Source: Hyphomonas chukchiensis (GTDB lineage Bacteria > Pseudomonadota > Alphaproteobacteria > Caulobacterales > Hyphomonadaceae). Taken from it: a DNA stretch of 64,000 nucleotides. Location: contig NZ_AWFG01000002.1 in NCBI RefSeq assembly GCF_000682695.1, forward strand, positions 1 to 64,000, written 5' to 3'. Shown piece after piece: positions 48,414 through 55,935 of the stretch. Each line of letters starts with the position of its first letter. Position 1 is the stretch's first letter. The notes under the pieces were generated by a model. The model ran no database searches. It was not told where the DNA came from and saw nothing but the letters and a program-made list of their open reading frames with translations. The translations under genes were made by a program, and so were the position numbers.

Positions 48414-50312
48414 ATGTCGCAGGCCTGGAAATCGATTCTTCAAACACTCGGCACGGCGATTGCCCTGATGGCGCTGGCGCCGTCCGCGTTGGCGGAATCA
48501 ACCGATGCCACGCTCAAGGCGGACATGGCCGCCTGCAAGCAGGCGAACGACAACAAGGCCTGCGAGGAGGCCTATGACTATTACGACGCCCGACTGGACG
48601 ATGCGAAGGGCAAGAAGGCGGCGGGTTACGTGGCCGAGATGGTCGTGCTGGCAGATACGGGGTGTGCTGCAGGCAATGGCTGGCTCTGCACCGAAATCGG
48701 CGTGTCGTACAAGAACGGTTACAAGGGGCGGGCCGAGGACCAGGTGCTCGGGCTGCAGCATAATCTGAGGGCCTGCGATCTCGGCAATGGTCTTGGCTGC
48801 GCCCGGACGGGGCAGGCGTATCAGACGGGAAAGGGGGTCGCGAAGGACGAGGCGGAGGCGACGCGATATTATCTGAAGGGCTGTGAGCTGGATGGTTCGA
48901 ACGGCTGCCAGTATCAGGCCTATCTCGTGCTGCTGCAGTATCTGAACAGGATACCCTATTCCAAGGATGCCATTGAAACGCTGAAGGGCCGGTGCGCCGA
49001 TACGGGCCTTGACGGGGCGGCATGTGTCGAACTCGGCAAGGCGTCCTTCTACGGTGCCTACGATATGCCGGAGGACGAAAAGCAGGCGCGAATATACTGG
49101 GGCAAGGCCTGCGCGCGCGCCGTTTATGCGCCCGGGTGCACGCTGCGCGCGCTGCTCGTGCTGAGTGATACGGACATGAGGGAGCCGCATTCGCCGGACA
49201 ATCTGAACGGTATACAAAGCCTTTATCGCGGCTGCCTGCTGGGTGACCTTCCGGCGTGCGAATTCATGGTTTTCGCCGGGCAGGAATATGCATGGGACTA
49301 TGAGGACGTTGTTGCACAGGGCATGTATGGCCGCTGCCTGGCGAAGCCGTCCGTCGAGGACTGTACGATGTCGGGCAAGGCGTTCAGGAACTACAGATTT
49401 CCGGACCATCCGCTGAAGGGTGAAGTAGCGAGCGACAAGTCGATGCGAGCCCTGACGACGGCGTGCAGGGAATTCAACGTCGCATGCGTCGATGTCGCCA
49501 ATTCCTATCTGGAAGATCAGAAGTTTACCATGGGGTCCGCCAACCTCGCCATCGGCGTGCTGGAATCTGCTTGCGAAAAAGGCGACGCAGCGGCCTGCGC
49601 ACGCAAGGATGAAGTGGTCGCGGAAACCGGCGGCGTCACGGGCAGCTATATCGACCCCATGCTGAACGATGACGAGCGCTTCCTGCTCGCGCGGTTCGAC
49701 ATCGAAAGCGGTGAGACACAGCGAGGCCGGGAGACGATGCAATGGCTGGCCTTCATGGGCCACACGCACGCCCAGCTCTACCTCGCCTATGCCTACGAGA
49801 ATGGCCTGAGCGTGGCGCAAAAGGATGCAAGCGGACGGATGCCGGACCTGCCCTATACGGTCAGCGACAAGGAGAGAATGATCTACGAGCTGTTCGATGC
49901 GGCAGCGAAGAAGGGCGTACCCGACGCGGCCATGAAGGTTGCCGTAATCAAGTATTCCGAGAACGACCACGAGGGCAGCGACAGCTATGAGAGCGCGATT
50001 TACAACGCGCTCTATCTCGGTGCCGACGGCGCCCAGCAGTTCTACGATGCCGTCATCGCCCAGAACAAGGCGCGGACCGAGGCCCAACTCGCAGCGATCC
50101 GCGAGATGAACCGCCAGAACATCCAGTCGCGCGACAACATGGATCGCCAGACGGTGCAGAGCGCGTGGGACCAGTATTACAAGCGCCAGGAAGAGCGGAA
50201 AGAAGCCGAGGGCGGCGAGGTCTGCGGCACGGTCTATGGCGAAGGCAACTCGACCTATCGCACGTGCATGTCACGGGCGACGGCGATGAAACATTATCGC
50301 GGGAATTTCTGA
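48414..50312 (+). CDS. Secreted Sel1/Hcp-like protein with ten cysteine pairs
   Basis: The 632-residue protein has a signal peptide (residues 1-27, ending PSALA). Between about 41 and 394 it contains ten cysteine pairs, for example 41/50, 84/92, 121/129, 157/165, 194/204, 233/242, 274/282, 307/316, 350/357 and 386/394, spaced 7-10 apart and repeating every 33-43 residues. GKGVAKDEAEATRYYLKGCELDGSNGC is close to disulfide-bridged Sel1-like repeats of Helicobacter Hcp proteins. The rest is helical, ending in a charged segment and a last Cys pair. The start is ATG 48414 after GGGGGAACGG; ATG 48396 is possible. Function unknown; envelope location inferred. Next gene starts 2 nt later. Confidence 0.78.
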   Translation: MSQAWKSILQTLGTAIALMALAPSALAESTDATLKADMAACKQANDNKACEEAYDYYDARLDDAKGKKAAGYVAEMVVLADTGCAAGNGWLCTEIGVSYKNGYKGRAEDQVLGLQHNLRACDLGNGLGCARTGQAYQTGKGVAKDEAEATRYYLKGCELDGSNGCQYQAYLVLLQYLNRIPYSKDAIETLKGRCADTGLDGAACVELGKASFYGAYDMPEDEKQARIYWGKACARAVYAPGCTLRALLVLSDTDMREPHSPDNLNGIQSLYRGCLLGDLPACEFMVFAGQEYAWDYEDVVAQGMYGRCLAKPSVEDCTMSGKAFRNYRFPDHPLKGEVASDKSMRALTTACREFNVACVDVANSYLEDQKFTMGSANLAIGVLESACEKGDAAACARKDEVVAETGGVTGSYIDPMLNDDERFLLARFDIESGETQRGRETMQWLAFMGHTHAQLYLAYAYENGLSVAQKDASGRMPDLPYTVSDKERMIYELFDAAAKKGVPDAAMKVAVIKYSENDHEGSDSYESAIYNALYLGADGAQQFYDAVIAQNKARTEAQLAAIREMNRQNIQSRDNMDRQTVQSAWDQYYKRQEERKEAEGGEVCGTVYGEGNSTYRTCMSRATAMKHYRGNF

Positions 50313-50314
50313 CA

Positions 50315-52297
50315 ATGGGGATGCGCATGATCCGGATGATTGGGGCGATGTGGCTGGCGCTCGCCATGGGGATGTTTGCAACCGCGATTGCCCAGGAGCC
50401 AGGGACGCCTCCCGTAGCGCAAGTCGCGCTTGATCCGGGTGTGCCATTGAAGGCGCCGAAGAATGGTACACTGAGCGCCCTGTCGCCGATCGGAAAAGTG
50501 CTGGTCGGGTGGGAGGCGAAGAAGAAATGGGGACTGGAGCGCGGCGACGCAGTGCCCTTCCATTATGCGCGCTACACGGTGAGCGCCGACACCAAGGTCA
50601 AGAAGGGCACCGCCCGCGCCGGCACTGACCTCTACGGCATCTATTACAAGAGCGCCAATGGCAGCTCGAAGAAGGATGGCGACTGGGTGGTCAAACCGGA
50701 ATGGTCCGGCCTTTTTCCGCTGAACACAGACCAGATGCTGGTGCGGGCACCGGGGACGGAGACCTGGTATGTGCTGCGCCTGTCGAACGGCAAGCTCAAG
50801 CAGCTCGACGATGGCGAGATTGCAATCACCCATATCGTGGATGAGGAAGTGACCGATCTCGTCAATCTCTATGGCGATGAGCTCTATTATCTTGTCACCG
50901 CCGACAATGGCACGAGCCAGACGATCCGCCTTCTCAGCTGGAACGCGTTCGAGCAGGAATTCTCGCTGCGCGCGCCGATCGACAATGTCGTGCCAGCCGC
51001 GACGCTTGGCGAGCCTCCGGTCAAGGTGACGATGCATCAGGATTTCTTCGTGCGCCGCTACAAGGCGGACGGATCGGCCTATGATTTCGTGGTCGTCAGT
51101 GACCCGGCTTCGACAAAGAATGTCCAGCCGCGTGTCGCATCGACACTGGAGGTGACCTACCCGTTCAAGCAGGCGATGTATGTGCTGGATGCCGAAAAGC
51201 AGCTCTATCTGCCGGTCGAGGATGAAATGTCACTGTCAGCCATGAGAAACGCGCAGGAGAACAATCCGGATTTTCTCGGTGTGCGCCCGGTTGGCCTCGG
51301 CGTGACGACCGGCACCAGGGAACATCCGCTGGAAGCCTACAAGGATGGCTTCATGGTCGCCGTGTGGAACACGCCGAAGGGCGAGCGCCTTGCCGTGCTC
51401 AAGCCCGACTGGCGCAGCTACATGTATTCCATCGATACCTGGAGCGCGGCCTACAAGCCGGAAAGGTCGACCTATTATTTCAACTATCTGAATCCGCATC
51501 ATGCCGCGGCTTCGAAATCATGGGCAGCCTATAGCGAGATCTATCCGATCTACATACCCGACGAGGTTCGCAATGACCCCGATCCGGAGCTCGCCATATA
51601 CAGTGGCATTTATTGCGTGGGGCCCGATGGGACCGTCGATGTGAACGTGGTGCAGGCCGGTTTCGCTGACGGCTGGTACTTCCGCGCCAACCCGGAACGG
51701 CTGGAGGACATGGACGCGGCGCGCGAATTCGTTGCGCAGGCCATGACGGTTGAGGGACGCCGCGCCGTGCATGCCCATCTGGGGAAACTGATCGCTGACA
51801 AGCAGGACAGGATTGCCGCCTCGGAACTTCGCAAGAAGGAGGCTGAGCAGGCAGCGATCGTGGCGCGCCGCGAGGCCCAGGAGAAGGCGCTCGAGGCCAA
51901 GCATGGGGAGATCAGATCCCTCCTGGCAAGGGGAGACTATTACCGCGCACTGGACCTTGCCTATATCGAACCCCGTTTCCTGCCCGAGGCCATCAAGGCG
52001 ACGATGGATGCGGGCTATGAAAACCTGGTCACGCTCGAGATGGCCGAGTCCTGCATGTACTGGGCGGACAACTGGCAGGCCGCCTATTGCGGCAACCGGA
52101 TCTGGAAACTGAAGCCGCCATCGAACCGGACGGTGCAGTACGGCCCGGCCTATTCAGGCTCGTCGAGCGGCTCATCGGCCGCAGCAGATACCAGCCAGTA
52201 TGACATCATGGAGGCGGCCCGCCAGAGCTCGCGCGATGCCTACAATAGCGGCCGTACTGGCAGCTATCTCTGCGGCTCTGGCCAGTCCTGCAACTAG
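50315..52297 (+). CDS. Secreted protein of unknown function with coiled-coil and Cys tail
   Basis: The 660-residue protein has a signal peptide (MIGAMWLALAMGMFATAIAQ). The first 430 residues are beta-rich, with segments such as DGDWVVKPEWSGLFPLNTDQ and WYVLRLSNGKLKQLDDGE that resemble WG-type beta-propeller repeats, an inference only. A charged helical stretch follows (LIADKQDRIAASELRKKEAE) and looks like a coiled coil. The Ser/Gly-rich tail ends LCGSGQSCN. It starts 2 nt after the cysteine-pair gene, so it is translated with it; ATG 50315, 50321 and 50327 are all possible starts. Family unknown. Confidence 0.72.
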   Translation: MGMRMIRMIGAMWLALAMGMFATAIAQEPGTPPVAQVALDPGVPLKAPKNGTLSALSPIGKVLVGWEAKKKWGLERGDAVPFHYARYTVSADTKVKKGTARAGTDLYGIYYKSANGSSKKDGDWVVKPEWSGLFPLNTDQMLVRAPGTETWYVLRLSNGKLKQLDDGEIAITHIVDEEVTDLVNLYGDELYYLVTADNGTSQTIRLLSWNAFEQEFSLRAPIDNVVPAATLGEPPVKVTMHQDFFVRRYKADGSAYDFVVVSDPASTKNVQPRVASTLEVTYPFKQAMYVLDAEKQLYLPVEDEMSLSAMRNAQENNPDFLGVRPVGLGVTTGTREHPLEAYKDGFMVAVWNTPKGERLAVLKPDWRSYMYSIDTWSAAYKPERSTYYFNYLNPHHAAASKSWAAYSEIYPIYIPDEVRNDPDPELAIYSGIYCVGPDGTVDVNVVQAGFADGWYFRANPERLEDMDAAREFVAQAMTVEGRRAVHAHLGKLIADKQDRIAASELRKKEAEQAAIVARREAQEKALEAKHGEIRSLLARGDYYRALDLAYIEPRFLPEAIKATMDAGYENLVTLEMAESCMYWADNWQAAYCGNRIWKLKPPSNRTVQYGPAYSGSSSGSSAAADTSQYDIMEAARQSSRDAYNSGRTGSYLCGSGQSCN

Positions 52298-54668: not shown

Positions 54669-55514
54669 TTACCCGACGAGGCTGAAGGGGGATTCATGGG
54701 CGATCTGGAGGCGTTCCTTCAGGGTCTGGCGGACGAGGAGGTGCGCGCCCTTTATGAACTCGCTGGGTGTGCGGCCGTTGAAATGCTTGAACTCGCGAAT
54801 GAAGTGCGACTGGTCGAAATAGGCCGTGGTGGCGATGTCGCGCCAGTCTGTCAGTTCCTGCCAGGTCAGGCGATTGGCGGAGTGGAGGGCGCGGAACTTG
54901 CGGTGGAGGCGCTTGGGCGCGCTGCCGAAATAGAGCTTGCAGAGGCGCTCGACCTGGCGGGCCGAGATGTCGGTGGCGGCTAGGAGGTCTTCCAGTTCGT
55001 TGGGCTCGGGATCGGTGATCCATCGGGTGGCGAGGGCGAGGAATTCCTCGTGGACGCGGCGGGCGGGATCGTCCAGCGCGGCGAAGAGCGTGTCGGCGGC
55101 GGCCGCGCGGCTGGCGGCATCGGGGGCGTCGAAGACGGGCTGGATATGGTGCAGGCATTCCGGTGGCACATGGTCGGCGAACGGCACGGTGCGGTCTGCC
55201 AGCGTGTCCGCAGGAATGCCCAGCATGCGGGCCCAGCCGAGCGGCGTGACCGCAGCGCCGAAGATGAGCGTGTCATCGTCAAAGCCGACACTGCACCATT
55301 TATAGGTCGGGCCGCAGAGCAGGGCCGAGCCGGCGGGAAACGTTTCCGGCTTGCCGTTCATGTTGGTGCGGACGGCGCCCCGGATGACGAAGCGGACATT
55401 GGCGATTTCGGCGCGCATGACATCGTCGAAGCCGACGGGGATGGTGGTGTCATAATAGCTGCCGACAAGGGCGCGGATATCGGCGCGGGGGAGGACATAT
55501 TCGAACTGCATCAT
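54669..55514 (-). CDS. AraC-family transcriptional regulator
   Basis: The 281-residue protein has an N-terminal effector domain and a C-terminal double helix-turn-helix (LEDLLAATDISARQVERLC and ATTAYFDQSHFIREFKHFNGRTPSEF). It lies just upstream of the GMC oxidoreductase on the same strand, 13 nt apart with GTG 54655, and probably controls it. ATG 55514 is chosen; a second ATG follows at 55511. Confidence 0.88.
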   Translation of the reverse strand: MMQFEYVLPRADIRALVGSYYDTTIPVGFDDVMRAEIANVRFVIRGAVRTNMNGKPETFPAGSALLCGPTYKWCSVGFDDDTLIFGAAVTPLGWARMLGIPADTLADRTVPFADHVPPECLHHIQPVFDAPDAASRAAAADTLFAALDDPARRVHEEFLALATRWITDPEPNELEDLLAATDISARQVERLCKLYFGSAPKRLHRKFRALHSANRLTWQELTDWRDIATTAYFDQSHFIREFKHFNGRTPSEFIKGAHLLVRQTLKERLQIAHESPFSLVG

Positions 55515-55935
55515 GGGTATACGCTCCCTCTCGCAGGCCTGATGCCCGTCCTGGTTCTGATGCAAGTTGAACAGGATGGCGAATTTATACAATCCCGGAT
55601 TCGGATTTGCGGAAATAATCCCTGATCGCCCATCCGGTTCGGATGCCCGTCAAGGCCGAGCTGGACAGGCGTTTCGCAAGGGGGATTCCTTGCTTCTGCC
55701 TGCCTGGGGATAGGCGGCGGGAGGCGTGAGTGAGCGCCGAACGGAATGAGCTGGTTAAGGGGACGCACCGCTGTGGATCGGGACCGATAGCCCGCGCCAC
55801 GGTGACCACTGCGATCATTCGCAGTGGTCAGCTCACTTCGGTCGCTTCACCGACTGACATGACGACCAGCACATGCGGCCGGCATGGCGAGGCCATCCGG
55901 TTGCGTGAGTATGGGGTTTGGCAGGCAGGGAGGCG
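55515..55935. other. 421-nt intergenic region
   Basis: The stretch contains the promoter zone of the AraC-GMC genes and a perfect 12-bp hairpin at 55803-55830. I see no convincing gene in any frame. Confidence 0.6.
55803..55830. repeat. Perfect 12-bp inverted repeat
   Basis: TGACCACTGCGA at 55803-55814 and TCGCAGTGGTCA at 55819-55830 form a perfect dyad with the 4-nt loop TCAT. It lies downstream of the minus-strand hypothetical gene (55936) and about 290 nt upstream of the AraC start. It lacks a T run, so it might be a terminator, attachment site or operator. Confidence 0.6.

Follow-up and report, generated by a model that had tools for sequence, protein, structure and literature searches.

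Gene layout of the locus

The window analyzed here, a stretch of 64,000 nucleotides from the genome of Hyphomonas chukchiensis (G000; contig NZ_AWFG01000002.1), holds two neighbouring intact open reading frames of 632 and 660 residues, designated P1 and P2 (Table 1). A first-pass annotation had described them as a coupled pair of large secreted proteins, and the frames and coordinates it gave (48414-52297) were correct. The gap of 2 nt that it reported between the genes holds if P2 starts at 50315, but not if the ATG at 50321 is used, which fits the start of the orthologue in genome G014 better; in the orthologous pair of that genome the gap is 28 nt. Both N-termini (MSQAWKSILQTLGTAIALMALAPSALA in P1 and MGMRMIRMIGAMWLALAMGMFATAIA in P2), read by eye, have the appearance of Sec-type signal sequences, in agreement with the earlier proposal that the two proteins would be exported. 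Downstream, a convergent nitroreductase gene ends 8 bases beyond P2 and is followed by genes for a GMC oxidoreductase and an AraC-type regulator. The G+C content of the pair (0.59-0.64) bears no mark of foreign origin, and promoter- or terminator-like sites at the locus were not in excess over shuffled sequences.

Table 1. Features of the P1-P2 locus (positions in the window; residue numbers of the encoded proteins).
Feature	Coordinates	Strand	Basis
P1, putatively secreted Sel1-repeat protein of the Hcp-like class, 632 aa	48414..50312	+	ORF, Pfam Sel1, HcpC 1ouv match
P1 putative signal sequence, residues 1-27, cleavage after ALA	48414..48494	+	by eye
P1 predicted disulfide solenoid with ten Cys pairs, residues 41-395	48534..49598	+	cysteine alignment; helix pairs in low-confidence model
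P1 Cys-free helical part, residues about 405-516	49626..49961	+	low-confidence model, secondary structure
P1 long helices, coiled-coil-like, residues about 525-598	49986..50207	+	low-confidence model
P1 C-terminal tail, residues 600-632, Cys pair 604/618	50211..50309	+	four-sequence comparison
P2, putatively secreted protein, no known family, 660 aa	50315..52297 (or start 50321)	+	ORF, family searches
P2 putative signal sequence, residues 1-26	50315..50392	+	by eye
P2 helical/coiled-coil segment, residues about 463-598, incl. Cys pair 580/592	51701..52108	+	model, alignment
P2 C-terminal tail, residues 625-660, ending Y-x-C-G-S-x-x-x-C-x	52187..52294	+	alignment
AraC-type regulator, possibly linked	54669..55592	-	relatives beside P1 in G014 and beside P1 remnant in G011

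Cysteine pairs, folds and relatives of the two proteins

P1 carries ten pairs of cysteines placed 7-10 residues apart (41/50, 84/92, 121/129, 157/165, 194/204, 233/242, 274/282, 308/317, 351/358 and 387/395). When the mature protein (residues 28-632) was shuffled 20,000 times, close pairs numbered 2.1 on average and 8 at most, and no shuffle reached ten. This confirmed the regular ten-pair pattern described in the first-pass annotation, although the total is eleven, with a further pair (604/618) near the C-terminus; the spacing between first cysteines, 34-43 residues, is close to the 33-43 given there. All 22 cysteines are invariant across the four aligned sequences, P1 and three orthologues. 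The Sel1/Hcp-like class that had been proposed for P1 was also borne out, both by Pfam Sel1 (PF08238; 41.9 bits for the whole protein, cut-off 30.7, in three stretches) and by alignment with HcpC (1ouv), its best solved relative (E 4.1e-24, and 1.6e-33 with a four-row profile), to whose repeats those of P1 align with the cysteines in register. A poor model built from a two-sequence alignment (mean pLDDT 49.3) consists of successive helices, with helix pairs in the Cys-pair region; its C-terminal part comprises the long helices listed in Table 1 and a terminal hairpin around 604/618. The solenoid is an ordinary member of the Hcp class, and the C-terminal part of P1 lies outside the coverage of the family. 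In PHROGs, residues 86-171 matched phrog_8741, of unknown function (E 2.4e-5), and PADLOC gave no match for P1 or P2. A second large Sel1 protein, of 709 aa and with many Cys pairs, is encoded in the same genome (L050 3847-5976, G000:C11).

P1 belongs to the same disulfide-rich repeat class as HcpB, whose structure paper, going by its title, reportedly deals with binding of cell-wall or penicillin-like ligands. By that analogy P1 could bind such ligands with P2 as an incidental neighbour; against this, no cell-wall domain was found in P2, and we consider this explanation very improbable.

The Helicobacter cysteine-rich proteins HcpB (1klx) and HcpC are secreted and built of disulfide-tied Sel1-like repeats, an arrangement that P1 would share. 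P1 is longer than either, with ten pairs in 632 aa and a Cys-free helical part; it also has the long C-terminal helices of the low-confidence model and a conserved tail with cysteines, and an orphan gene lies next to its own. Two other proteins share part of this architecture: E. coli c5321 (4bwr), with eleven Sel1 repeats in one superhelix, but without the disulfides predicted for P1 (PMC3851747), and Csep1P of Campylobacter concisus, which has solenoid hairpins with disulfides between cysteines 9 residues apart, yet only three such pairs and a sequence in which no Sel1 repeats were found (PMC12904459). Both papers present Hcp solenoids as stabilised by their disulfides (PMC3851747, PMC12904459), and one describes the roles of most solenoids of this type as poorly understood (PMC12904459).

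P2 matched no family above the cut-offs of Pfam or NCBIfam and none in PHROGs, and its best matches among solved structures had E values of 0.1 and 1.3. Its model (two-sequence alignment) has a mean pLDDT of 38.0, with a clear rise only at residues 501-580 (block means 59-87). The propeller assigned to P2 in the first-pass annotation found no support here or in further comparisons: no internal repeats appeared when P2 was compared with itself (hhalign, five-row alignment), and its likeness to WG-repeat proteins (PF14903) is limited to one short stretch, residues 116-130, that resembles a WG repeat below significance. A WG-repeat propeller was discarded after hhalign against two WG-like proteins of relatives gave nothing significant; PF14903 is present in 2 of 21 genomes, and the window's genome has none at E 0.01. 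The coiled coil that had also been suggested is plausible, given the long helices that the poor model predicts at about 463-598. Weak Pfam matches, below cut-off or single, were dropped, both for P2 (HTH_Tnp_Mu_1, E 0.029) and for other members (Caf1, 0.067; DUF7091, 0.34).

The Cys pair noted earlier at the C-terminus of P2 is indeed present, but it is one of two conserved pairs, 580/592 and 653/659, and these four cysteines are retained in the four close P2 sequences. C434, also found in P2, is absent from the G014 protein, and a remote relative in G011 retains C-G-S together with the last two cysteines (653 and 659). A secreted-looking protein of 651 aa with a C-terminal Cys pair, encoded in G012 near the leucyl aminopeptidase and HolC core genes (L126 1311-3266), was at first sight similar to P2, but the similarity score was equalled in 24 of 100 shuffles and the protein was rejected as a member; it showed no Pfam match and no significant likeness to P2.

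Distribution, movement and divergence of the pair

Searches of 105 genomes of the family located the P1 C-terminal profile in four, namely the window's genome, Hyphomonas oceanitis SCH89 DNA (G002), G014 and G011, and full-length P2 in five, i.e. the same four, with only 24% identity in G011, and G090, which belongs to another genus (g14). A decayed 3' end of P2, of the G011 type, makes G028 the sixth. Among 398 genomes drawn from the order, a draw that did not include G014, P2 was detected in five and the P1 profile in nine, but one and six of these, respectively, were set aside: the P2 match in G246 (E 1.8e-4, residues 461-534) was taken as coiled coil, and the six P1 matches, partial and with E values of 9e-5 to 9e-4, as general Sel1. 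Only the window's own genome had P2 among 385 drawn from the class. A peptide-pattern scan of genome contigs for P2 returned one locus, that of H. oceanitis; plasmid records, phage records and viral contigs contained no P2 relatives, and viral contigs no P1 C-terminal part.

The first-pass annotation had proposed one two-component system, for which homologues of the two genes should occur together, and they do: close homologues of P1 and P2 are adjacent in all three genomes that hold both (the window's genome, H. oceanitis and G014), a proportion that becomes three out of four if the 24%-identical P2 relative of G011 is counted, since in G011 P1 is at one site and this relative on another contig. 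The placement of the pair is less sure in G014, a genome assembly 93% complete with 9% contamination, where it lies on a 9.2-kb contig. The proposal is supported only in part: adjacency speaks for it, and against it speaks that G011 has P1 with no P2 beside it and G090 has P2 but no P1. From these two cases it follows that neither protein depends on contact with the other. P1 and P2 are a rare, fast-changing accessory pair, often but not always found together.

In G011 (L045 5558-8304, G011:C1), P1 and a small convergent gene are inserted between two genes that we take to encode leucyl aminopeptidase and HolC. Comparison of L045 with L121, L122, L123, L124, L125 and L126 showed that the gap between these flanking genes measures 3, 3 and 5 bases in the window's genome, G033 and G012, and about 155-160 bases in H. 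oceanitis and G014, and that in G028 it is occupied by a 142-aa frame; it is possibly an insertion hot spot. The small gene has a relative in G014, convergent to P2, that is 62% identical to the G011 copy convergent to P1 and has no Pfam match. Members of this small family start with M-[NS]-LETIYYIGQT (L048 686-1168, plus strand; L045 7656-8177, minus strand). Besides the decayed P2 of G028, 3' remnants were found of P1 in G011, beside a truncated AraC gene, and of P2 in G014. The nitroreductase gene is present in 29 of 41 genomes searched, with P2 within 1.5 kb only in the window's genome and H. oceanitis.

According to leucyl aminopeptidase, the window's genome, H. oceanitis, G028, G033 and G014 group with G011 (89-91% identity to it), and the other Hyphomonas compared reach at most 83%. 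For P2 of the window, in turn, identity is 71% to the G090 protein and only 56% to the protein of G014, a member of its own clade. This conflict with species relationships points to transfer, as judged from protein identities rather than from a tree or the core identity of G090, and with G014 perhaps contaminated. Just before the tail of P1 in H. oceanitis, 124 bases (L051 8944-9067) differ from G014 by one mismatch, although overall identity between the P1 proteins of these two genomes is 53%; the window departs from them in the same stretch at 17 and 18 positions. This stretch is likely a recombination tract. The insert in G011, the 3' remnants in three genomes and the conflicting similarity of P2 point to P1-P2 as an accessory unit that moves between sites and undergoes decay, all inside a single clade of Hyphomonas.

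A relative of the AraC-type gene stands divergently beside P1 in G014, and matches to it were obtained in ten of the 105 genomes: the window's genome, H. oceanitis, G014, G028, G011 (a fragment) and five of genus g14 including G090. No Hyphomonas that carries P1, P2 or remnants of them lacks the gene or a piece of it, although these five genomes fall in one group of six, whose sixth member, G033, has no match. It lies beside the GMC gene, without P1, in G028, and far from P2 in G090. A functional link between the regulator and the pair is possible, and is confounded by kinship.

Between the window and H. oceanitis, protein identity is 87% for P1 and 77% for P2, compared with 93-96% for six neighbouring genes, and dN/dS (NG86) is about 0.20 and 0.23, compared with 0.08-0.17. 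Both genes are under purifying selection, yet they change faster than the six neighbours tested. Synonymous divergence amounts to 0.63 in P2, 0.38 in P1 and 0.22-0.38 in the neighbours. In the C-terminal tail of P1, 26 to 33 of the 33 residues agree whichever two of the four sequences are compared, and the rest of the protein is 48-86% identical; in distant pairs, where identity outside the tail drops to 48-51%, no other part is nearly as well kept. For P2, identity over the last 36 residues is 75-92% within the set of four close sequences (rest, 54-77%) and 31-36% in comparison with the remote relative in G011 (23-25% outside the tail). Between the window and H. oceanitis, other stretches of both proteins vary as little as the tails.

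These patterns bear on two further explanations. P1 and P2 could be unrelated secreted accessory proteins that share an operon with no physical contact, their adjacency reflecting joint transfer. Each has been found without the other, and P2 may have followed a separate history, judging from its closeness to the G090 protein and from a synonymous divergence above that of P1 and the neighbours; on the other hand, the three adjacent pairs share gene order, with no more than 28 bases between the two genes, and occupy two different sites; this amounts to at most two independent placements, given that the pair sits at a common site in the window's genome and in H. oceanitis. We regard this explanation as a serious candidate, short of an even chance. 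The pair could also consist of a toxin, P2, and a Sel1-type immunity protein, P1. Immunity proteins with Sel1 repeats exist, such as Sel1E, which acts against VgrG4 of Klebsiella (PMC7108748), and fast change and patchy distribution would fit such a role. But both proteins are apparently exported by the same cell, P2 persists in G090 without P1, its C-terminus is conserved rather than variable among close sequences, and no toxin, defence or phage family in Pfam, NCBIfam, PADLOC or PHROGs matches it, all of which makes a toxin-immunity pair improbable.

A possible scaffold and its facultative partner

Our best guess, which we put forward tentatively and rate only just above two co-travelling proteins that do not interact, is that P1 is an exported, disulfide-locked scaffold that binds peptides, with P2 as its facultative partner. 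After export, to the oxidising periplasm or beyond the cell, P1 would take the shape of a long alpha/alpha superhelix of Sel1 repeats in which ten disulfides lock the hairpins, and would act as a passive scaffold for a peptide or protein. P2 would be the co-encoded, exported partner, with its helical C-terminal part and Cys-bearing tail as the likeliest contact, and the conserved tail of P1 itself could vie for the same groove. In crystals of c5321 and HcpC, a C-terminal tail touches the concave groove of the molecule next to it (PMC3851747). Also in favour are the register of the P1 and HcpC cysteines, the adjacency of close homologues in three genomes, purifying selection combined with fast change, the better-kept tails and the insert in G011. 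Against this reading weigh the genomes in which P1 and P2 occur apart, the low tail identity of the remote P2 relative, the stretches that vary as little as the tails, the poor models of both proteins, a G+C content that does not mark the pair as foreign, and the confounding of the AraC link by kinship. The accessory unit would sometimes reside near an AraC-type regulator, and we would guess that its biological task is an envelope or surface interaction. A more elaborate version, in which the pair is a mobile, fast-diversifying envelope assembly where the P1 solenoid grips the Cys-bearing tail of P2, the tails serving as conserved docking signals and the bodies diverging, seems to us rather unlikely.

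If P1 and P2 make no contact, the finding is that of an ordinary accessory gene pair. P2 would in itself make a small new family, here confined to Hyphomonadaceae-type genomes of the family searched. If the scaffold and partner interpretation is true, a co-encoded partner with a kept tail would provide an Hcp-type solenoid with a testable ligand.
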